This document shows positions 687 through 49,646 of a stretch of 50,466 nt of DNA, piece by piece. Source of the stretch: an uncultured Pseudomonadota bacterium (GTDB taxonomy: Bacteria > Pseudomonadota > Gammaproteobacteria > Competibacterales > Competibacteraceae); the NCBI GenBank assembly GCA_903844665.1, contig CAIMUS010000087.1, positions 1 to 50,466 on the forward strand, read 5' to 3'. The notes beneath the pieces are model-generated. The model saw only the letters and a program-made list of their open reading frames with translations. It was not told the origin of the DNA and did not search any database. Each line of letters begins with the position of its first letter. Positions within the stretch are counted from its first letter, which is position 1. A program made the position numbers and the translations under genes.

Positions 687-3600
687 TTACCTCCTCCATA
701 ATTGCCGCCATGATTGTCGCCCAAGATCATTGGGGCCAGAGTTGATAGTATATTTTGCAGATTCTCCTGTTGTCCCACCACCAATACCGATCAATGCCCC
801 ACGGATGCCGCCACAATCACCATTACTGCCGCCACCGCCACCGCCGCCACCGCCACCGCCGCCACCGCCACCGCCGCCACCGCCGCCACCGCCGCTGTTG
901 TCAGGTGGTATATAGTATATCAGGCCTGGAGTTGGCAAGGCGCCAACCTGTGATTTTTGCCCGGCAACATTCTCGCCTCCCATAATAAGCGCCAAATCGG
1001 CTTGATCGAACTTGAAATCTCCATTTAAATCAAAGGTAACCTCTTTCGGAGTGCCGCCATCATTGGCATCCACCACCATAAGCCAACTCGAACTGCCATC
1101 GGAATCACAGGTCTGAGAGTTCTGAGGAAGAGGAAGGACCAGCGTAGTAAAAATAACCCGCTTATTCCGGATGGTAGGGTCGCTGATTTGCTTCTCACCT
1201 AACGGAAAGTCCATATACCAACCTTTATTGCATTGTGCTCCGCTGCTGTTCAACCATTGGATGGATCCGCTTGCAGGGGTGAGCTTGCGGAAATCGGTAC
1301 CGACGAGCGCGATTTGCTGCTCGAATAGAGGTAGAGGTTGACAGCCTGTTGCTGTTACAGGGGTGTTTCGGCTAAAGGCGCTTGACCCTGCTGGTACATT
1401 ATAGTCCCAGATGCCATAAAAACTTTGTTGTGTGGCGCCATTATACTGGTTATCGTTAATTTCAAAATACTTGCCGGTGCCAAAATAAATCATTTGACCG
1501 AAAGCTCTCCCCATTGGATGATAATTCACCTCCGGGCGTACTGTAATCGGTTGTGCTGTTCCATTTGTATCGGTAGCCTGGAACAGTTTTATTACTGTCC
1601 AATTACCTGAATTAGAATCACTGATATCGAATTTCCATAGATTGCCGAAAAGATCGCCCGCATAGACATAATCGGCATTCAAGTCATCATCGACATCCAC
1701 GACCGCGGGAGTTGCCAGACCGTTGGGTCGGCCAGCACCGGTGGGATCCTGGCTGCTGCCTACACCCGTACTTATCTTAATGAACTGAGGAGTGGAATTG
1801 TCCAGATAATACACATAGAGCACGGCTTCACCACTATGTAAGCCTGTGCTAACTACCGTCTTACCGTTTCGTTTGGTATTGTCATTCGGATCGTTCCCAT
1901 CAGGTTCTGTATTATTATAGCCGTTGCCAAAAATGACAGCCCACTTATTGTTGTGCAGGCGGGTAATAGTCGGTTTACTGAAGGAATAGCCTAAATCGGG
2001 ATCGTCATTATCGCTGAACTCCCAAAGTACATTAGCCGTGCTAAAATCGACTGGATTTTGGATGGTTCCTGGATTGGTGATCTTGAGTGCGAAGACGGCT
2101 TGTCCGCCGGCACGCAAGCCACTTACCAGAACACTCTCCCAATGGCCGTCAAAAAAGGCATCACCCACCGTTGGAGAACCATCGACAAAATACCGATGGA
2201 CATACTGACGCGAGGTTAGAGAGAGCAATTGACCAACCAAGTTACCTGGAATATAGGCAATCTTCTCGTTACCGTCAGTGGCATTGAAACCATGCAGCAT
2301 GCCATCGTTAGCACCAACATAAACTATCGGTTGACGGAAAGCCCAAGCCGATTTAAAGGTTTTGTACGCGGAACACTCCGTGCAGTTGTATTCATCATAG
2401 CGGAAAGGAGGCTGGGCAACATAAACTGGATCGGACTGAATAATATCTCCGAGTAAATTCGGACGTGGCCGGAAGGTATTAGCATTAATCCAATCTTTAT
2501 CATTGCTAGTGTTATTGACCCCTGTACCTGCGCCTCTGCCCTGGAGAAATTCAACTCGCGCCTGGCCCTTGCCATCACTGTTCAAGGCGTTCTGCTGGGT
2601 TAAATCCAAGTTGTCAAATGTAAAAGGAATGGCCTGGGGCAGCGGTAAGAGTTTATAGCTAAAGATTTTTCTGGTTAAGTAGCCGGTGTTATTAAGTTTG
2701 TCAGCCGCGCTCCAAATTTCGTCCCCGAGATTGCCTTGGTCATCCACAGCAAATGCTTTTAAATCACCGGTCCAATACTGACTTTCAAAACTGGTCAGGA
2801 AAACCTTACTACCTGAGCTGTAGTAACTGGAGCTCGATGCAGAACTAGCAAATGTTCGGGCTGTGCTGATCTGATTCAGTACCGCGAGCAACGCCGACCG
2901 CAGCTTTTCAGGATCCTGGGCAAAGGTATAAGCGCCATGACTGTTATAAGCCGCATGCCAGAGATCGTTGATTTTTTTCGGGCAATCACCGCAAGCTGTA
3001 GGTTGATTACCCCATGAAGAGTTAGCAGCCTGGCCCCAGTTGTTATGGCCGGCAGGAGGGGGACACCAGATAGGAGGATTTACAATATTATCAGGCCAAC
3101 CATCGCCATTGGCATCCGTGAGTGTGCCATTCACACCGAGAGATATGCCAAAAGTTACCATATGCTGGTGTGATGGATAATTACTCGGATCATCGCAAGA
3201 CGTTGGGTTGAGGATATTTGGAAAATTGTTTGTAGTTCTAAGATCGTTGATATAATAATATCTGGCCACATCGGCGAGAGTAACAGTGGGAGATCCATCT
3301 CCATCAGCATCTCCGATTGAGGTAAGGTTATCGGTATCAAACGTAGTATAATAGCCATCGGTAATTATCAAACTATAGTTACGTTGACATTTGTCAATTA
3401 TCGGATCGACCGCTGTACCTGATATCTTGTTCATATAGTATTTCCCTGCTTGATTCAAGACCGTACGCGCTGGTGTACCACCACTATAATAATATAATCT
3501 AAAAAGTGCGTCGAGCATATTTTGATTATGCTCTTGAGAATCAGTAGTTTGAGTTGGAAATTCGAAAATTAATCCCAGTGAGTTTTGATTGGCATTACTT

Positions 3601-4937
3601 TGATCAAATTTCGCAAGCGATTGAGTATTATTATCATTAGCTATTATTAGGTTGGATTGATCAGATTGATCGAATTGGCTCATTAAACCATAACGGTAAT
3701 TGGGAGCAATATAGGGCATTTCCGAAATTAATGCCTTCATTGTCAGCAGACGGCGACGATAATATTGAAACCAATTGGCGATATTCTGTTTTTCTTCTGT
3801 TAGTGTTCTATTTGGAATAACACTGGCAGGGAGCCCATTCAGTGGAGTGGAGGTGGAAGTGCAATTAAGAGATCCATTTGGGTTATAAGTATTCGAACAG
3901 GTGATCTTTTCAACCGTCATTGAATTTTCCGTAACGGTAACTTTATAGCGTGAATCCCACAAATCAACCATACCATTTGGACTATTAGTCACATTAATAT
4001 TGGTGCCACGCTTGGGACGGTTCCCACTATAACCCTTATCATCTATCCATACGTAATAAACAAACCCTATTCTAGTACATGTAACATCTCCAGATGAGGA
4101 TAAGGTGCAGGAAGTAGGATCAACTCCAAGCGGCGATAGGGGGTTCTGCCCATTTTGTGAACCTAAGTTGACTACTTTGTCATAACCCTTCTCATTGGAA
4201 TAAGGATTACCTCGTGCTGCTGTAAAATCGGCATCTTGCAGATTATTTTGCGAATTTGATAGTTTCCAAGGTTTATAATTAACTCTGGGGTTATAATACA
4301 TTACATTCAAATCGGCGGATCTCACTCTCCAATCTAATGCTTCGGTTCTAGGACAAGAAGCCAGAGAAAAATAAGAAATTGATCGTATACAATTTGTAGA
4401 TACGAGATTATCGTCACATACAGTCTGAGTTGGATCACATGTTACATTTACCCCAACATTGCTGCTGCTCAAATAATCATATGATAAAAAATTTCTTACA
4501 CCGTTTCCAGCTATTGCTGGATCGCAGATAAAAGAAGTACAGGGAGGGTTGCCGCTTTCTGCAGCCTCAGCGAGATCCGGCCCCGAAAGAGTAATATCAC
4601 CATCCTCCCTTAAGATACCACAATCGTCATCAGGGTTAATACAGCTATTATTTAATTGGTGTCCATCACTAATATCCGCAGGGGTTGGCGCATGACTATT
4701 ACCTGATGCATAACTATACTCGTATGCAGCTCGTTCCCAATGCGGTTTGGTCATGATTTCTTTATCCGTACTCTGAGAATTATCCAACAGGATAAGGATA
4801 TTAGGCGGTGTGGTATTTGCCAAAAATAGTGGGCTCGAGCTCAAATTCAGGTTTGCTGCTGAAGCAGCAGATATGGTTTGTATAAGGATGCTGATCGATA
4901 TACTTGCCAACTTAATAAAGAATTGAATTTTTCTCAT
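687..4937 (-). CDS. pilY1: Type IV pilus tip protein PilY1 with polyglycine tract
   Basis: This 1416-residue protein has a signal peptide (about residues 1-28). An N-terminal von Willebrand-like region has a metal site of the form DNSQS at 52-56, and a C-terminal beta-propeller region follows. Propeller signs are the calcium loop DVDDDLNAD starting at D1081, which matches the known PilY1 calcium site, and VYVGANDGMLHGFN upstream. A second dockerin-like loop, DLNGDFKFDQAD, starts at D1303. Residues about 1349-1370 are 22 consecutive glycines, followed by a short tail ending in GRQSWRQL and an extra WRR. PilY1 is the calcium-dependent pilus tip adhesin and mechanosensor. An AAGGA ribosome site lies 9 bases before the ATG. 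Its stop overlaps the pilE ribosome-binding site. Confidence 0.93.
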   Translation of the reverse strand: MRKIQFFIKLASISISILIQTISAASAANLNLSSSPLFLANTTPPNILILLDNSQSTDKEIMTKPHWERAAYEYSYASGNSHAPTPADISDGHQLNNSCINPDDDCGILREDGDITLSGPDLAEAAESGNPPCTSFICDPAIAGNGVRNFLSYDYLSSSNVGVNVTCDPTQTVCDDNLVSTNCIRSISYFSLASCPRTEALDWRVRSADLNVMYYNPRVNYKPWKLSNSQNNLQDADFTAARGNPYSNEKGYDKVVNLGSQNGQNPLSPLGVDPTSCTLSSSGDVTCTRIGFVYYVWIDDKGYSGNRPKRGTNINVTNSPNGMVDLWDSRYKVTVTENSMTVEKITCSNTYNPNGSLNCTSTSTPLNGLPASVIPNRTLTEEKQNIANWFQYYRRRLLTMKALISEMPYIAPNYRYGLMSQFDQSDQSNLIIANDNNTQSLAKFDQSNANQNSLGLIFEFPTQTTDSQEHNQNMLDALFRLYYYSGGTPARTVLNQAGKYYMNKISGTAVDPIIDKCQRNYSLIITDGYYTTFDTDNLTSIGDADGDGSPTVTLADVARYYYINDLRTTNNFPNILNPTSCDDPSNYPSHQHMVTFGISLGVNGTLTDANGDGWPDNIVNPPIWCPPPAGHNNWGQAANSSWGNQPTACGDCPKKINDLWHAAYNSHGAYTFAQDPEKLRSALLAVLNQISTARTFASSASSSSYYSSGSKVFLTSFESQYWTGDLKAFAVDDQGNLGDEIWSAADKLNNTGYLTRKIFSYKLLPLPQAIPFTFDNLDLTQQNALNSDGKGQARVEFLQGRGAGTGVNNTSNDKDWINANTFRPRPNLLGDIIQSDPVYVAQPPFRYDEYNCTECSAYKTFKSAWAFRQPIVYVGANDGMLHGFNATDGNEKIAYIPGNLVGQLLSLTSRQYVHRYFVDGSPTVGDAFFDGHWESVLVSGLRAGGQAVFALKITNPGTIQNPVDFSTANVLWEFSDNDDPDLGYSFSKPTITRLHNNKWAVIFGNGYNNTEPDGNDPNDNTKRNGKTVVSTGLHSGEAVLYVYYLDNSTPQFIKISTGVGSSQDPTGAGRPNGLATPAVVDVDDDLNADYVYAGDLFGNLWKFDISDSNSGNWTVIKLFQATDTNGTAQPITVRPEVNYHPMGRAFGQMIYFGTGKYFEINDNQYNGATQQSFYGIWDYNVPAGSSAFSRNTPVTATGCQPLPLFEQQIALVGTDFRKLTPASGSIQWLNSSGAQCNKGWYMDFPLGEKQISDPTIRNKRVIFTTLVLPLPQNSQTCDSDGSSSWLMVVDANDGGTPKEVTFDLNGDFKFDQADLALIMGGENVAGQKSQVGALPTPGLIYYIPPDNSGGGGGGGGGGGGGGGGGGGGGGSNGDCGGIRGALIGIGGGTTGESAKYTINSGPNDLGRQSWRQLWRR
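828..893 (-). repeat. GGC/GGT microsatellite encoding 22 glycines in pilY1
   Basis: Twenty-two consecutive glycine codons alternate irregularly between GGC and GGT with no other codon. The array sits between the propeller domain and the C-terminal tail of PilY1. Because units are three bases, gain or loss changes linker length without breaking the frame. Confidence 0.95.
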
Positions 4938-14881: not shown

Positions 14882-16108
14882 ATGAGTGATTCTTTGAACA
14901 TCGATGTGGCTATCGTCGGTGGCGGTATCGCCGGCTTATGGCTGTTGTCTCACCTCCGTGCCCACGGCTATGGCGCCTTGCTGATCGAAGGCAGGCGTCT
15001 TGGGCAGGGGCAAACCATTGCCTCCCAAGGCCTTATTTATGGTAGTTCAAGTTATACCTTGGCCGGTGCGGGTGCGGGTGCGGGTGCGGGTGCGGGTGCG
15101 GGTGCGGGTGCGGGTGCGGGTGCTGAAATCGACCGGACAGCCGACAAACTTACGGAAATCTGGCGGCGTTGTCTGACGGGCAGCGGCGAAGTGGACTTGA
15201 GCGGCGTCAGGCAGCTCAGCCAGCTCCAGTATCTTTGGATGCCCAAACCGCGCTCTTCATGGCTGAACCGGTTGATCCACCCGTTCAAGCGCAAACCGGC
15301 GATAGCTATACCCACCGGGATCGATTGCCCGGCACTGCTCTCCCAACTGGGTGTGGATGGCGCTGTCTACCAACTGGATGAACCGGTGTTGGACGTCGCC
15401 TCCTTACTCCAGGTGTTCGCCGAAAGGCAGCGGGAAGCGATTGTCCTCAATCGGGGTTCCCTGGTGCTGTCTTCCGATGGCGCGATCGCTTTGCTGGCGC
15501 CGGAGCGGAATCCGGTTACCATCCGGCCGCGCTGGTGCGTGTTCACGGCGGGGGTTGAAAATGCCGCCTTGGTCTGGGCGCCGGTGAAAATCCGCACTGT
15601 GCATATGATCATAGTGCGCGGTAAGCACTTGCCGGATAATGTTTATGCGCATTGTCTGAGCGATGGCGCCACTCCGCGCCTGACGATCACCAGCCACCGC
15701 GCCGCTGACGGTTCAGTCATCTGGTATTTGGGGGGACAATTGGCGGAAGAAGGCAAACGCCGCCGTGTCTCGCAACATCTCCGTGAGGCGCGTCGGGAAT
15801 TGACCCGGTTATTGCCCAAGGCAGACCTGAAGGATGCTCAATTCACCACCCTGCGCATCCGCCGGGTGGAGGGTCCGCGAACGGAGGGGAAGCACCCGGA
15901 CAAACCTGGCGTTTCTCAGAACGGTAAGGTGATCGCCGCCTGGCCTGGCAGCCTGACGATGGTTCCCATGCTCGCCGAGGCGGTCGTGCAGCGGCTGGAA
16001 CGAAACGGATTGCGGCCTGCTGCCGTCTCTCTTGAACCGTTGGCCGACTGGCCCCGTCCCGAGGTGGCCAGCTATCCCTGGGATAACGAGCAGTTGGTTT
16101 GGCAGTGA
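14882..16108 (+). CDS. FAD-dependent oxidoreductase (DAO-like) with Gly-Ala repeat
   Basis: The 408-residue protein opens with a dinucleotide-binding motif (IVGGGIAGLWLLSHLRAHGY, glycines at 13-15 and 18) and continues with IEGRRLGQGQTIASQGLIYG, as in D-amino-acid oxidase-like flavoproteins. A late AWPGSLTMVPMLAEAV segment fits the second FAD-contacting region. Residues 62-81 are ten Gly-Ala pairs encoded by a hexanucleotide repeat, inserted after the GLIYGSS strand. The substrate is unknown. A small cytochrome c gene follows 144 bases downstream on the same strand, a possible electron acceptor. No strong ribosome site is visible. Confidence 0.8.
   Translation: MSDSLNIDVAIVGGGIAGLWLLSHLRAHGYGALLIEGRRLGQGQTIASQGLIYGSSSYTLAGAGAGAGAGAGAGAGAGAGAEIDRTADKLTEIWRRCLTGSGEVDLSGVRQLSQLQYLWMPKPRSSWLNRLIHPFKRKPAIAIPTGIDCPALLSQLGVDGAVYQLDEPVLDVASLLQVFAERQREAIVLNRGSLVLSSDGAIALLAPERNPVTIRPRWCVFTAGVENAALVWAPVKIRTVHMIIVRGKHLPDNVYAHCLSDGATPRLTITSHRAADGSVIWYLGGQLAEEGKRRRVSQHLREARRELTRLLPKADLKDAQFTTLRIRRVEGPRTEGKHPDKPGVSQNGKVIAAWPGSLTMVPMLAEAVVQRLERNGLRPAAVSLEPLADWPRPEVASYPWDNEQLVWQ
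15065..15124 (+). repeat. GGTGCG hexanucleotide tandem repeat inside the flavoprotein gene
   Basis: Nine perfect GGTGCG copies are followed by one GGTGCT. Each encodes Gly-Ala, so copy number changes alter length by two residues and keep the frame. Confidence 0.96.
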
Positions 16109-34873: not shown

Positions 34874-35845
34874 ATGAGCGACCTCAAACTCAAGCAACTC
34901 GGCCGCGACGTCCTGGAGACCGAAGCCCAGGCGGTGGCCCGTCTGAAAGACCGGATCGATGACAACTTCGTTCGCGCCTGTCAGTACATGCTGGCCTGTG
35001 AAGGGCGTATCATCGTCACCGGCATGGGCAAATCGGGTCATATCGGTGGTAAGATCGCCGCCACCCTGGCCAGCACCGGTAGCCCGGCCTTCTTCGTCCA
35101 TCCCGCCGAGGCCAGCCATGGCGATCTCGGTATGATCACCGCCAAGGATCTGGTGCTGGCGCTGTCCAATTCCGGCGAAACCGAGGAGATCAAGGTCCTG
35201 CTGCCGCTGATCAAGCGGCTGGGGGTGCCGTTGATCGCCCTGACCGGCAACCCGGCATCCACCCTGGCCAGGGCGGCCGATGTGCATATCGATGTCAGCG
35301 TCGATAAGGAAGCCTGTCCCCTGGGACTGGCGCCGACCGCCAGTTCCACGGCGGCCCTGGCGATGGGAGACGCGCTGGCTATCTCGCTGCTGGAGGCGCG
35401 CGGTTTTACCGCCGATGATTTCGCCCTTTCCCATCCTGGCGGTCGGCTGGGACGGCGCCTGCTGTTGCTGATCGACGATGTGATGCATACGGGCGATACT
35501 ATCCCGCGCAACGCGCCCGAAGACCGCCTCGATGTCGCCCTGGTGGAAATGACCCGTAAGGGACTGGGCATGACCGTCGTCACCGATCCGGCCGATCGTC
35601 TGCTGGGCGTGTTTACCGACGGCGATCTGCGCCGTACACTGGACCGGCGCATCGATGTTCACGCCGTCAGCGTCGCCGAGGTGATGACTCCTAATTGCAG
35701 GAGAGTACATCCGGGCATCCTGGCCGCGGAAGCGCTGGGGCTGATGGATACCTATAAAATCAACGCTCTGCCGGTGGTGGATGCCGATGATAAACTGCTC
35801 GGCGTGCTGAATATGCACGATCTGCTGCGCGCGGGCGTCATGTAA
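34874..35845 (+). CDS. kdsD: Arabinose-5-phosphate isomerase
   Basis: This 323-residue protein converts ribulose-5-phosphate to arabinose-5-phosphate, the first step to Kdo. The SIS domain (about 1-190) has GMGKSGHIGGKIAATLASTG, FVHPAEASHGDLGM and ALSNSGETEEI. Two CBS domains follow (from about 205), containing VTDPADRLLGVFTDGDLRR and VVDADDKLLGVLNMHDLLRAGV. Length equals the E. coli enzyme. It leads the LPS gene run. Confidence 0.96.
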   Translation: MSDLKLKQLGRDVLETEAQAVARLKDRIDDNFVRACQYMLACEGRIIVTGMGKSGHIGGKIAATLASTGSPAFFVHPAEASHGDLGMITAKDLVLALSNSGETEEIKVLLPLIKRLGVPLIALTGNPASTLARAADVHIDVSVDKEACPLGLAPTASSTAALAMGDALAISLLEARGFTADDFALSHPGGRLGRRLLLLIDDVMHTGDTIPRNAPEDRLDVALVEMTRKGLGMTVVTDPADRLLGVFTDGDLRRTLDRRIDVHAVSVAEVMTPNCRRVHPGILAAEALGLMDTYKINALPVVDADDKLLGVLNMHDLLRAGVM

Positions 35846-35863: not shown

Positions 35864-36406
35864 ATGCAAGATATTCTGCACCGAGCCGCCCAGATTCGTC
35901 TGGTCATCTTCGACGTCGATGGAGTGCTCACCGACGGCCGTCTCTATTTGGCCGACGATGGCAATGAATTCAAGGCCTTCCATTCCAGGGACGGCCATGG
36001 CATGAAGATGCTGCAAAACCAGGGCGTGGCTGTCGCCATCATCTCCGGCCGCCGTTCGCTGGCGGTGGAGCGGCGCATGGCCGATCTGGGCATCGATTAT
36101 GTCTATATGGGCGTTCAGGACAAACTGGTCGCCTTCCAGGACTTGCTGCAACACCAGGGCCTGGATCCCGCTCAGGTGGCTTACGTGGGCGATGACGTGA
36201 TCGACCTGCCCGTGATGAGTCGGGTCGGACTGGCGATCGCCGTGCAGGACGCCGATCCCTTCGTCAGACGCCACGCCCACTGGCAGACCCCCAGTGCCGG
36301 CGGACGGGGGGCCGCCCGCGAGGTCTGCGAACTGCTCCTGGAAGCCCTTGGCCGGCTCGAACCGGAGCGAGCCAGGTTCATCGAACCGCCGTCGGCTCCG
36401 GTTTGA
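35864..36406 (+). CDS. kdsC: 3-deoxy-D-manno-octulosonate 8-phosphate phosphatase
   Basis: The 180-residue HAD-family enzyme releases phosphate from Kdo-8-P. Motif I is IFDVDGVLTDGRLYL, motif II IISGRRS, and motif IV YVGDDVIDLPVM. The C-terminus has the TPSAGGRGAAREVCELLL loop of KdsC. It starts 18 bases after kdsD. The next gene in most relatives, lptC, is absent. Confidence 0.95.
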   Translation: MQDILHRAAQIRLVIFDVDGVLTDGRLYLADDGNEFKAFHSRDGHGMKMLQNQGVAVAIISGRRSLAVERRMADLGIDYVYMGVQDKLVAFQDLLQHQGLDPAQVAYVGDDVIDLPVMSRVGLAIAVQDADPFVRRHAHWQTPSAGGRGAAREVCELLLEALGRLEPERARFIEPPSAPV

Positions 36407-36440
36407 GAGGCGGCGAGGCCGGCGCGCGGGCCGCAAGGTA

Positions 36441-36494
36441 GAGGAGTGAGGAGTGAGGAGTGAGGAGTGAGGAGTGAGGAGTGAGGAGTGAGGA
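36441..36494 (+). repeat. GAGGAGT heptanucleotide tandem array
   Basis: Seven perfect copies plus five bases of GAGGAGT lie between kdsC and lptA. The seven-base unit is not a multiple of three. Each copy looks like a ribosome-binding site. It stands where lptC would be expected. Confidence 0.97.
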
Positions 36495-36581
36495 AGAAAT
36501 CGCCGGACAGTTTCAAATTTACCATGAAAATTCAAGTAGTTATTTTTTATACAGCACTAACGTCTCAATCCGAGGATACCT

Positions 36582-37223
36582 ATGTACTTGCCACTGCGCC
36601 TCAGCGCCTTATTGCTACCGGCCCTACTGTTGCTGCCGGGTTGGCTTTATGCCCTGCCGGAGGATAGCAAGCAGCCTGTTCAATTGGAAGCCGACCGTGG
36701 TCAATTGGACCAGAAGACCGGCACCAGCATCTATGAAGGCAACGTGGTCATCATCCAGGGCAGTCTGCATCTGACCGCCGATACCGCCACCGTCTATACC
36801 CAAAACGGCCAGTTTCAACGGATCGAGGCCTTCGGCAAGCCGGCCGCCTGGCGCTACAAAACCTCCCCCGATAAGGAGGAGATGCATGGTACCGGCCAAC
36901 GGGTGGATTACGATGTCACCAAAGATCTAATGAGCATGACGGGTAACGCCAGAGTGACTCAGGGTAACGACGTCTACACCGGCGATTACATCGAATACGA
37001 AACCAAAACCGACCTGGTCAGGGCTCGGGGCGAAAAAGGCAACCGTATTCAGATCACCATCCAACCCAAATCATCGACCACGGGATCTGCCTCATCCCAA
37101 AAGTCGCCTAAAACCCCGACGCCGTCCGCCAAGGTCCCGGGGACGGAAGGGCCAAGCGTTGGCAAACAGGAGCCTTCCAAAGCCCCGACGCCGCCCCCCA
37201 AAGCGCCTTCCCCGGGCCGCTAG
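36582..37223 (+). CDS. lptA: LPS transport protein LptA
   Basis: The 213-residue precursor has a signal peptide (about 1-24) and the LptA/OstA jellyroll domain: [31 protein letters not shown] in spirit, ending with AGNARVTQG-like repeats ([21 protein letters not shown]). LptA forms the periplasmic bridge that carries LPS from LptBFG-C to LptDE. Residues about 163-213 are an unusual Ser/Pro/Lys-rich tail with TP and AP repeats that E. coli LptA lacks. lptB begins 5 bases after its stop. Confidence 0.92.
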
Positions 37224-37227
37224 CCCT

Positions 37228-37953
<726 letters not shown>

Positions 37954-38043: not shown

Positions 38044-39522
38044 ATGAGACAGTCGCCGCAAATCCAACTGCAGGTAAGTCAGCAGTTGACCATGACGCCC
38101 CAGTTGCAGCAGGCCATCCGCCTGTTGCAGCTTTCCAGCGTGGACCTGCAAACGGAAATCCAGGCGGTGCTCGAATCCAATCTGATGCTGGAACGGGTGG
38201 AGGAGGCGCACGACAGTCTGTCACCGGCGGATGAAGCTCTGGCCATGGCGGCGCCCGACCCGGCCGAACTGTCTGCCGCTGGAGAGGAACTGGATGCCGC
38301 CAATACCACTTTGCCCGAAGAGTTGCCGGTGGACAGCGCCTGGGAGGATGGTTACGACAGCTACGATGGCGCCACCAGCTTTTCGCGGGGTGACGATGAG
38401 CCATGGGACCCTTACGAGCAACAGGCCGACGCCCCCGGTTCGCTACGCGATCATTTGATCTGGCAAATGGAGCTGACCCCTTTTAGCGAGCGGGATATCG
38501 CTATCGCCACCGCCCTCATCGACGCCATCGACGAGACCGGCTATCTATCCCTGCCGCTGACAGAGATTCACCAGGGGCTGCCGGCGGAACTGGACATCGA
38601 ACTGGACGAGGTGGAAGCGGTACTGCATCGGATCCAGCATTTCGATCCGCCGGGGGTGGCGGCCCGCAACCCGGCGGAATGCCTGCTATTGCAGTTGAAT
38701 CAATTGCCGCCGGATACCCTCTGGCTGCCGCAGGCACAGGAACTGGTGCAACACCATCTGGACCTGCTGGCGGAACACAACTTCCCCTTGCTGCTACGCC
38801 GGCTGAAGGTAGCGCGGGAATCCCTGCAACAAATCGTGCTGTTGATTCTTTCTCTGAACCCCCATCCAGGCGCAGCGTTGTCGGTCAGCAAAACCCAGTA
38901 TGTTATCCCGGATGTCTTCGTGCACCGCCATAGCAACATCTGGCGGGTGGAGCTCAATCCCGATAACACCCCCCGCCTGCGCATCAACAGCCAGTATGCC
39001 CGACTGGTGCGCCGCGCCGATAACAGCACCGACAATGTCTATTTGAAAAATCATCTGCAGGAAGCGCGCTGGTTCCTGAAAAGCCTGAAGAACCGCAACC
39101 AGACTCTGCTGAGAGTCGCGGGTTGTATCGTCGAGCGCCAGCGGGAATTTCTGGAATACGGGGAAGAATCCATGAAACCGCTGGTGCTGCGGGATATCGC
39201 CGAAGCGATGGAGATGCATGAATCCACCATTTCCCGGGTCACCACCCAAAAATATATGCATACCCCGCGCGGCATCTACGAGTTCAAGTATTTTTTCTCC
39301 AGTCATGTCGGCACCAGCGACGGCGGTGAATGTTCCTCCACCGCCATTCGCGCCATGATCAGGAAATTGATCGCCGAGGAAAGTCCGCAACAGCCGCTCA
39401 GCGATAGCACGATCGCCCGATGTTTAAGCCAGGATGGCATTCAGGTGGCGCGGCGAACGGTGGCAAAATACCGGGAGGTGATGTCGATACCGTCATCGAC
39501 CGATCGTAAACGTCTCACTTGA
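38044..39522 (+). CDS. rpoN: RNA polymerase sigma-54 factor
   Basis: This 492-residue sigma factor has the glutamine-rich region I (QLQVSQQLTMTPQLQQAIRLLQ) that contacts enhancer-binding ATPases, an acidic region II, and the core-binding region. Region III has the helix-turn-helix (DIAEAMEMHESTISRVTTQKY) and the RpoN box ARRTVAKYRE at about 469-478, which reads the -24 element. It is full length. It follows lptB, and ptsN comes next without hpf between them. Confidence 0.97.
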   Translation: MRQSPQIQLQVSQQLTMTPQLQQAIRLLQLSSVDLQTEIQAVLESNLMLERVEEAHDSLSPADEALAMAAPDPAELSAAGEELDAANTTLPEELPVDSAWEDGYDSYDGATSFSRGDDEPWDPYEQQADAPGSLRDHLIWQMELTPFSERDIAIATALIDAIDETGYLSLPLTEIHQGLPAELDIELDEVEAVLHRIQHFDPPGVAARNPAECLLLQLNQLPPDTLWLPQAQELVQHHLDLLAEHNFPLLLRRLKVARESLQQIVLLILSLNPHPGAALSVSKTQYVIPDVFVHRHSNIWRVELNPDNTPRLRINSQYARLVRRADNSTDNVYLKNHLQEARWFLKSLKNRNQTLLRVAGCIVERQREFLEYGEESMKPLVLRDIAEAMEMHESTISRVTTQKYMHTPRGIYEFKYFFSSHVGTSDGGECSSTAIRAMIRKLIAEESPQQPLSDSTIARCLSQDGIQVARRTVAKYREVMSIPSSTDRKRLT

Positions 39523-48470: not shown

Positions 48471-49646
48471 TCAAGCCTTGGCACGATGATGCGTCATGAT
48501 CAGCGCCAATACCAACCAGAGAATCAGCCAAAGTTCTCTGGGTCTTGTAATCAGCTTATCAGTTTCCGGGATCATACAGATCATTCCATAGGTTAGCAGT
48601 ATAAGGTATAGATAATCCCCACTTTGGTTCCCTATCTGTAATGCCCGCCTACCGGCGTAAAGCAAAATGGTCAGCATTAACAACAAGCCAACCACACCGC
48701 CATCCCGGAGAGCGGCCAGATAAGCACTGTGTGCATAATCATAAGTTACATCCTCTGCAGGGACATAGACTGTCAGATGATTCAGGTAGCCATGGCCGAA
48801 TAAAGGGGCTTGCATCACGTCGGCGAGATAGCTACTCCAGATGATTGTTCTGGGACTAATATCTCTATTGAATAGAGTAAGCAAGGCCTCGCCAAAGAAC
48901 ACAGATCCCCCAATCAAAATGCTGGCAAGCCAGCCGATGAAAAACAGGTTCGATTTGTCACGATGGATCGAAACCCCTAGAAAGATCAACGCCAGTATTA
49001 CGGCAATCAAGGCCGTTCGGCTCTGGGTAAACCACACAAAGCAACACAACACCGTAGCAATAGCCAAGAAAAACAGACGCTCCATCAGTGCCGACGCTCG
49101 CAGTGCCAGTTGTGCAGCGACGATGGCAAAGCAGCCATAAGCGAGCCCGCTGGGATTGGGGTTTACCAGTATGCCCAGACCGACCAAGCGAGAACTGGGA
49201 AATGGATGATCCTGATACCAGAGTAAGATCGATACAGCAGCGGCCACCCCCGCGCCAGTACAGAGGAATCTAAGAAGCGCTGGGAACGCGTCGGCGTATT
49301 TATGCCGCAGGACGGCCATCAGCAGGATAAACATCACAATATAGGCTGCAAGGCGAAGATAATGCCAGAATTCTTTGATAGTAAAAGGCTGACTCCAGCA
49401 CGAACTGGCCAGCATATAACCTAAATAGAGCAGCACCAACAGAAATAGATGATCGCTTTTAAGCAAGCACCAACCTGTCGGCAGCATCAAAAGACCCGGT
49501 AAAAATACAGTAAGGGTAAAAAATTTATAAAGATCGATGCCGTTTGGAATATAGAAAAAACCCAGCAAGAAGAGTCCGTAAGTAATCCACAGGACAGGAA
49601 TAAGAATATTTTCTGCCCTAGATAAGTAGACAGCAGCATGCATCAA
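48471..49646 (-). CDS. O-antigen ligase-like membrane protein
   Basis: The 391-residue protein has about ten or eleven membrane spans and the Wzy_C (WaaL-type) pattern: LGILVNPNPSGLAYG, WFTQSRTALIAVILAL with the arginine, a long periplasmic loop with the motif GHGYLNHLTVYVP, and YDYAHSAYLAALRDGGVVGLLL, where the conserved His lies in HS. Such proteins join O-antigen or related polymer to lipid A-core, or polymerise or ligate other glycans. It is in the same orientation as the GT4 gene downstream, with a 124-base gap. Confidence 0.83.
   Translation of the reverse strand: MMHAAVYLSRAENILIPVLWITYGLFLLGFFYIPNGIDLYKFFTLTVFLPGLLMLPTGWCLLKSDHLFLLVLLYLGYMLASSCWSQPFTIKEFWHYLRLAAYIVMFILLMAVLRHKYADAFPALLRFLCTGAGVAAAVSILLWYQDHPFPSSRLVGLGILVNPNPSGLAYGCFAIVAAQLALRASALMERLFFLAIATVLCCFVWFTQSRTALIAVILALIFLGVSIHRDKSNLFFIGWLASILIGGSVFFGEALLTLFNRDISPRTIIWSSYLADVMQAPLFGHGYLNHLTVYVPAEDVTYDYAHSAYLAALRDGGVVGLLLMLTILLYAGRRALQIGNQSGDYLYLILLTYGMICMIPETDKLITRPRELWLILWLVLALIMTHHRAKA

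Follow-up and report, generated by a model that had tools for sequence, protein, structure and literature searches.

Does a bacterium that has no lptC at its usual place still run a bridge for LPS, and if so, through which proteins? E. coli cannot do without LptC, which belongs to LptB2FGC, a complex that according to published abstracts is hit by a recent antibiotic. The question was raised by an earlier note on the DNA studied here, which had pointed out that lptC is missing between kdsC and lptA. The window, i.e., the whole stretch of DNA analysed (50,466 nucleotides), is contig C87 of a draft assembly (348 contigs, 4.88 Mb, 98.93% complete, 1.7% contamination) of the source genome, hereafter G000; other G-numbers denote genomes compared with it, L-numbers loci, and C-numbers contigs of G000. 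In our search set G000 stands alone in its genus, with 38 relatives in Competibacteraceae.

The kdsC-lptA junction and the search for lptC

The junction lies in a run of five genes on the forward strand, all intact and in their usual order: kdsD, for the arabinose-5-phosphate isomerase with SIS and CBS domains (34874..35845; Pfam PF01380 and PF00571); kdsC, for the KDO-8-phosphate phosphatase of HAD type (35864..36406; NCBIfam NF007019, 219.4 bits against a cut-off of 208); lptA (36582..37223, 213 aa; TIGR03002, 145.9 bits against 71.7, and PF03968); lptB, for the ABC protein (37228..37953, 241 aa; TIGR04406, 380.4 bits against 240); and rpoN, for sigma-54 (38044..39522; PF00309, PF04963 and PF04552). 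These Pfam and NCBIfam matches bear out the standard order given in the earlier note, and the spacing of 175 bases that it reported is exact, with kdsC ending at 36406 and lptA starting at 36582.

The gap itself (36407..36581, no strand assigned) encodes no lptC in any forward frame. A family profile was built from 24 LptC sequences of Competibacteraceae; it scores 176–336 bits on 36 relatives, 24 of which went into it, and finds nothing above 4.7 bits (E 6.8) in the six frames of the window. Searched against the whole G000 assembly, PF06835 has part of lptA as its sole match, scoring 10.7 bits against a cut-off of 21, and the family profile gives nothing at E ≤ 10. A relocated lptC, the alternative that the note had offered, was therefore found with neither profile, and of the seven-protein Lpt machine the LptC (PF06835) component was not found in G000. 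Among its 38 relatives, 36 have an LptC over the PF06835 cut-off, and lptC adjoins lptA in all 36 loci examined. The other two, G019 and G036, lack both lptC and lptA; because lptA is missing too, these absences are probably assembly holes.

About one third of the gap is a GAGGAGT tandem array (36441..36494, forward strand) of 7.7 perfect copies (100% matches, score 108), and the rest includes about 87 bases of AT-richer DNA, which agrees with the note's description of a 7-base array plus AT-rich DNA free of LptC-like coding. No promoter or terminator was found in the 175 bases by consensus. The note had further suggested that the array could mark a deletion point. Three or more exact consecutive copies of GAGGAGT occur, however, at 10 places on 10 contigs of G000, nine of them away from this junction, and no such array is present in the kdsC-lptA gap of five other lptC-less genomes described below. 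Nor does a stretch of two or more copies occur in the lptA loci of the 29 family relatives searched. A reversed-sequence control for the array count was uninformative, because the heptamer is mirror-symmetric. Thus, the array is a dispersed genomic repeat; its reading as a deletion scar is not supported, and it says nothing about the way in which lptC disappeared.

Repeats of this and other kinds were seen elsewhere in G000. The heptamer arrays (GAGGAGT/ACTCCTC, 3 to 14 copies) lie on C6, C74, C87, C88, C144, C211, C215, C232, C251 and C338, and some adjoin related CACCCCT or TTTCGCC arrays. In the window, a perfect GGTGCG hexamer array of 9.8 copies (15065-15123) encodes an Ala-Gly run within a frame (14882-16108) that by eye is FAD-type oxidoreductase-like, and a CCGCCA-type array (828-895) lies within a 1416-aa reverse-strand frame (687-4937), in a context that by eye is like a type IV pilus gene cluster.

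LptF residue 212 and a second type of LptFG

In E. coli, LptF R212 was replaced, by Cys, Ser or Gly, in every independent delta-lptC survivor (PMC4986956, in excerpt). According to the part of a second report available (PMC9972910), the complex with LptF R212G forms a six-protein bridge, R212 lies near an LPS-binding site at the LptF-LptC interface, and the suppressors needed extra LptA; its authors propose that removal of the charge lowers the barrier for LPS exit from LptF to LptA.

LptF of G000 was aligned with those of its family, of the class and of E. coli MG1655, in which residue 212 is Arg; at this position G000 has Gln. All 27 family relatives with a readable LptF have Arg212 (30 loci were taken, of which L082, with a broken frame, and L092 and L094, with no LptF, were dropped). 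G000 thus combines the absence of LptC with an LptF that has no Arg at 212, as in the six-protein bridge, and its Gln is none of the proven suppressor residues Gly, Ser and Cys. Gly or Ser does occur at 212 in the second LptF copies of G348, G091, G302 and G181. As a separate observation, the LptC of one family relative, G038, has only 133 aa (L056:2100-2501) owing to an in-frame internal deletion of about one third of the protein, which is either real or an assembly error; the LptF of that genome keeps Arg212.

Of the remaining components, LptA, LptB, LptF and LptG of G000 all score over their NCBIfam equivalog cut-offs, a single intact LptF/LptG pair is encoded on C285 (two PF03739 matches), and C290 holds an LptD-like open frame of 773 aa with a PF03968 match over the cut-off. 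The combination that the earlier note had said would be notable, lptC absent with lptF, lptG and lptD present, is what G000 shows, with an lptD-like gene as the candidate for lptD.

The LptF/LptG pair is not that of the family. A tree of 102 LptF rows unites all 27 from the family in a single clade (SH-aLRT 99) that excludes the G000 sequence, which groups instead in a separate clade of 11 rows (SH-aLRT 97); the same 11 rows group in an LptG tree of 99 rows (SH-aLRT 99). We call this clade and its enlargement type b. A type-b profile was run over 379 genomes of the class and followed by a further tree, which brought the carriers to at least 20; this is a lower bound, since the reading and placing of new loci covered 13 of those fetched and did not extend to weaker matches. 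None of the 20 type-b LptFs has Arg212; the residue is A, G, S, Q, Y, L, V or I. LptC, called here by a PF06835 match alone, is kept in 12 of the 18 resolved carriers, the match in G391 being only 4.5e-12.

The neighbours of type-b genes, counted for families named by Pfam or NCBIfam since the neighbour clusters contain spurious reverse-strand frames, are of several kinds. Of the 20 loci, nine (that of G000 among them) have an NTP_transf_3 nucleotidyltransferase, nine a GNAT-type acyltransferase, seven a second nucleotidyltransferase and four a serine palmitoyltransferase; a CDP-alcohol transferase also occurs, Pfam-tested at one locus. The single serine palmitoyltransferase tested, that of G314, reaches 579 bits with NF047599, for which the cut-off is 500. 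At the G000 locus an NTP_transf_3 gene lies upstream of lptF and adjoins it, and serine palmitoyltransferase is not among the neighbours. In Caulobacter, a phosphosphingolipid locus includes LptF2 and LptG2, for which the authors propose a role in transport that was not studied there (PMC11324152, in excerpt). Judged by the kinds of genes present, type-b loci elsewhere resemble it. Given the sphingolipid genes beside it elsewhere, the type-b pair might carry a lipid other than LPS.

At the far end of the window (48471-49646) lies a gene for an O-antigen ligase-type (Wzy_C) protein with 35% identity to a homologue in G091, where a single ELM1-family gene separates it from the type-b lptF.

Recurrence of lptC loss in other lineages

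In a class draw of 379 genomes, each at least 97% complete and sampled from a larger group, the presence of LptC was judged from the PF06835 match, and additionally from the kdsC-lptA junction in the genomes for which one is described here. No PF06835 match (E ≤ 0.01) was found in 12 of the 379, G000 being one of them. At the kdsC-lptA junction, lptC is absent from five more genomes, so that six genomes, G000 included, are lptC-less; they represent four families. The junction gap is about 160–180 bases in G143 and G219, depending on the lptA start, 74 bases in G348, and 19 bases in G091, where the LptC profile finds nothing although PF06835 gives a weak genome-wide match (8.9e-4). The gap of the fifth, G129 (L262:1913-2128, 216 bases), holds an lptC remnant: a membrane-helix start, then a stop, after which only the last 55 of the 197 LptC profile positions are matched (45.4 bits; the genome-wide PF06835 match is a weak 2.1e-7). 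In G129 the decay of lptC is apparently in progress.

Arg212 is found in none of the six, over all LptF copies read. Residue 212 is Gln in G000, Tyr in G143 and G219, and Ala in G129, while G091 and G348, with two copies each, have Gln in one and Gly in the other. Among 81 LptC-bearing genomes (27 of the family and 54 of 56 chosen class genomes, G059 and G100 being left out), an Arg212-type LptF is missing from eight (G132, G139, G043, G067, G099, G106, G241 and G069); it is also missing from G179, outside the 81, in which LptC is present. A Fisher test of lptC loss against Arg212 loss gives 6e-6, or about 1e-3 when collapsed by family, with approximate family denominators and kinship uncorrected beyond this rough collapse. 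Because LptC-bearing genomes without Arg212 exist, loss of Arg212 is insufficient for loss of lptC. Type b is present in six of six lptC-less genomes and in 12 of the 366 LptC-bearing genomes of the class draw, a minimum count in which LptC-bearing means a PF06835 match, with G111 added. In G000, G143, G219 and G129 it is the sole LptFG (two PF03739 matches each).

The other PF06835-negative genomes of the draw are not counted here as lptC-less. In G111, a plausible LptC-sized frame, seen by eye, had been missed by PF06835, and in G066, G077, G130, G268 and G302 the LptA match is absent too and the ordinary LptF has Arg. G060, a genome of 0.9 Mb, is outside the LptF reading. The last is G305, where LptF has Gln at 212 and lptA-lptB (L179) adjoin a gene that by eye is Ffh-like, away from kdsC.

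The clearest comparison lies within one genus. G091, G348, G181 and G302 each have two LptFG pairs. LptC is present in G181 (PF06835, 4.2e-30), with Arg212 in its ordinary LptF; G302 also keeps Arg212, and neither lptC nor lptA was found in it; G091 and G348, which lack lptC, keep the ordinary LptF with Gln212. The scan took in 128 columns (52 of LptF, 76 of LptG) with a conservation of 80% or more among the reference rows, a set from which seven rows of second copies or unresolved genomes (L240, L242 and L188-L192) were left out and G302a was kept. G091 and G348 both depart from the consensus at 17 of the 128 columns, and only at three of these do G181 and G302 both keep it: LptF 3 (Ile to Met or Leu), LptF 212 (Arg to Gln) and LptG 55 (Tyr to Phe), of which R212Q is the sole radical change. 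Furthermore, just four columns depart in all six lptC-less genomes: LptG 91 and, in LptF, columns 3 (where the G000 fragment has a gap), 212 and 306. Of these only LptF 212 is more than 90% conserved.

A proposed bridge without LptC and its rivals

We propose, with a probability of roughly 0.6, that the Lpt bridge of G000 runs with six components, LPS being handed to LptA, without LptC, by a second-type LptF that has no Arg212. In this model the genome's own LptF/LptG pair would have been replaced by a second-type pair that has no Arg212; with this positive charge gone from the beta-jellyroll of LptF, LPS could move directly from LptF to LptA, as in the R212G/S/C suppressors; and LptC, having become optional, would then have decayed or been lost, as seen in G129. 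The earlier note's suggestion that the bridge works without LptC is thus the one that we favour, with LPS as the presumed cargo of the type-b pair and a presumably direct contact between LptF and LptA. The order of events, LptFG exchange before lptC loss, is likewise inferred. That lptC absence and Arg212 absence recur together in other lineages is observed, and nature may have repeated the E. coli R212 suppressor experiment. A literature search, in which subscription journals were thinly covered, turned up no account that links a natural loss of lptC to R212.

Several points count against the proposal. First, Gln212 was not among the E. coli suppressors, which were Cys, Ser and Gly. Second, those suppressors needed extra LptA, and the G000 gap holds no promoter consensus. 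Third, both Arg212 loss (8 of 81, and G179) and type b (12 of 18 carriers) are found with LptC kept. Fourth, the sphingolipid genes next to type b elsewhere may point to another cargo, and lipid A genes did not turn up in the 13% of G000 sampled for them.

Comparison with known systems shows the same mixture. Like the E. coli K-12 delta-lptC lptF R212G/S/C strains, G000 has no LptC and a residue other than Arg at 212, alongside LptA, LptB, LptF, LptG and an LptD-like protein. Unlike them, its state is natural and recurrent rather than selected, the residue is Gln (Tyr or Ala in the other genomes with a sole pair), LptF and LptG both come from another clade, and raised LptA is not evident. With the canonical seven-protein LptB2FGC-A-DE, G000 shares the kdsD-kdsC-lptA-lptB-rpoN order, the over-cut-off LptA, LptB, LptF and LptG, and the LptD-like protein; it differs in the missing lptC, in LptF residue 212 and in an LptFG that lies outside the family clade. 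Caulobacter LptF2/LptG2 (CC_1156 and CC_1155) offer a parallel, drawn by gene kinds only, for a second LptFG type with sphingolipid-type neighbours in several gammaproteobacteria, of which the G000 pair keeps one, NTP_transf_3. Unlike the Caulobacter pair, however, type b is the only LptFG of G000, and no LptC2 was found.

A rival reading supposes a different cargo. LPS export might have been given up and LptC lost along with the LPS-type LptFG; the LptFG that is left might then, together with LptB, LptA and LptD, export a phosphosphingolipid or a similar anionic lipid. The serine palmitoyltransferase, GNAT-type acyltransferase and NTP_transf_3 genes that adjoin type-b loci elsewhere, as around Caulobacter LptF2/LptG2, and the NTP_transf_3 gene still adjoining lptF in G000 would fit such a switch. 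So would the result of sampling about 644 kb, or 13%, of G000 with E. coli lpxA/B/C/D/K, fabZ, skp, kdsA, waaA (N-terminal part), waaG, waaQ and msbA and with a gammaproteobacterial serine palmitoyltransferase: no lipid A gene was seen, only weak ABC-domain matches to msbA, and there was one weak waaG match in the window. However, fabZ, which is expected to be needed, was not seen in this 13% either, and the sample therefore most likely missed these loci. Against a switch, the same 13% showed no serine palmitoyltransferase. The retention of kdsD and kdsC in all six lptC-less genomes, intact in G000 and beside lptA in the others (G091 and G129 by BLAST; G143, G219 and G348 by eye), argues that LPS would still be made, KDO being of little use without it, capsules aside. 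The Wzy_C gene in the window and the ordinary LptFG kept, with R212Q, in G091 and G348 also speak against a switch, and we regard it as unlikely.

An assembly artefact, in which lptC was dropped, e.g., by collapse of flanking arrays, while the LptFG of LPS type is hidden in the 1% not assembled or the contig with LptFG comes from a contaminant, is more improbable still. The fragmentation, incompleteness and contamination of the draft, the recurrence of the array at 10 places and the two relatives that look like such holes all leave room for it. Against this, kdsC and lptA lie on one contig of 50 kb, the array is short (54 bases), and the assembly runs through longer arrays, of as many as 14 copies, elsewhere in G000. 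The G+C of C285 (0.599) and its tetranucleotide profile fit G000, a weak argument given the nearly equal scores of two family relatives. The combination of no lptC and no Arg212 is also present in G219 and G091, which are single-contig genomes.

Equally improbable is an unrelated or unrecognisably diverged anchor encoded elsewhere, with the LptF change incidental: LptC is poorly conserved, PF06835 missed the plausible LptC of G111 and the assembly search covered LptC-like sequence only, but the family profile that recognises 36 relatives finds nothing in G000, the G129 remnant indicates loss rather than divergence there, and the link with R212 would be a coincidence.

Having proposed an LptC-free bridge for G000, we would extend it to the class more tentatively, at a little under even odds. 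LptC would then be evolutionarily dispensable: at least four gammaproteobacterial lineages would have lost it, always with an Arg212-less LptF, three of them after displacement of their ordinary LptFG by a sphingolipid-locus LptF2/LptG2 that now carries LPS, a second lipid exporter thus having been recruited to a six-protein LPS bridge. The lptC-less genomes, which lack the very residue hit in the suppressors, are natural test material for how LPS exits from LptF and for the question of whether LPS can be a cargo of an LptF2/LptG2-type pair; they also bear on which species an LptC-directed inhibitor would miss.
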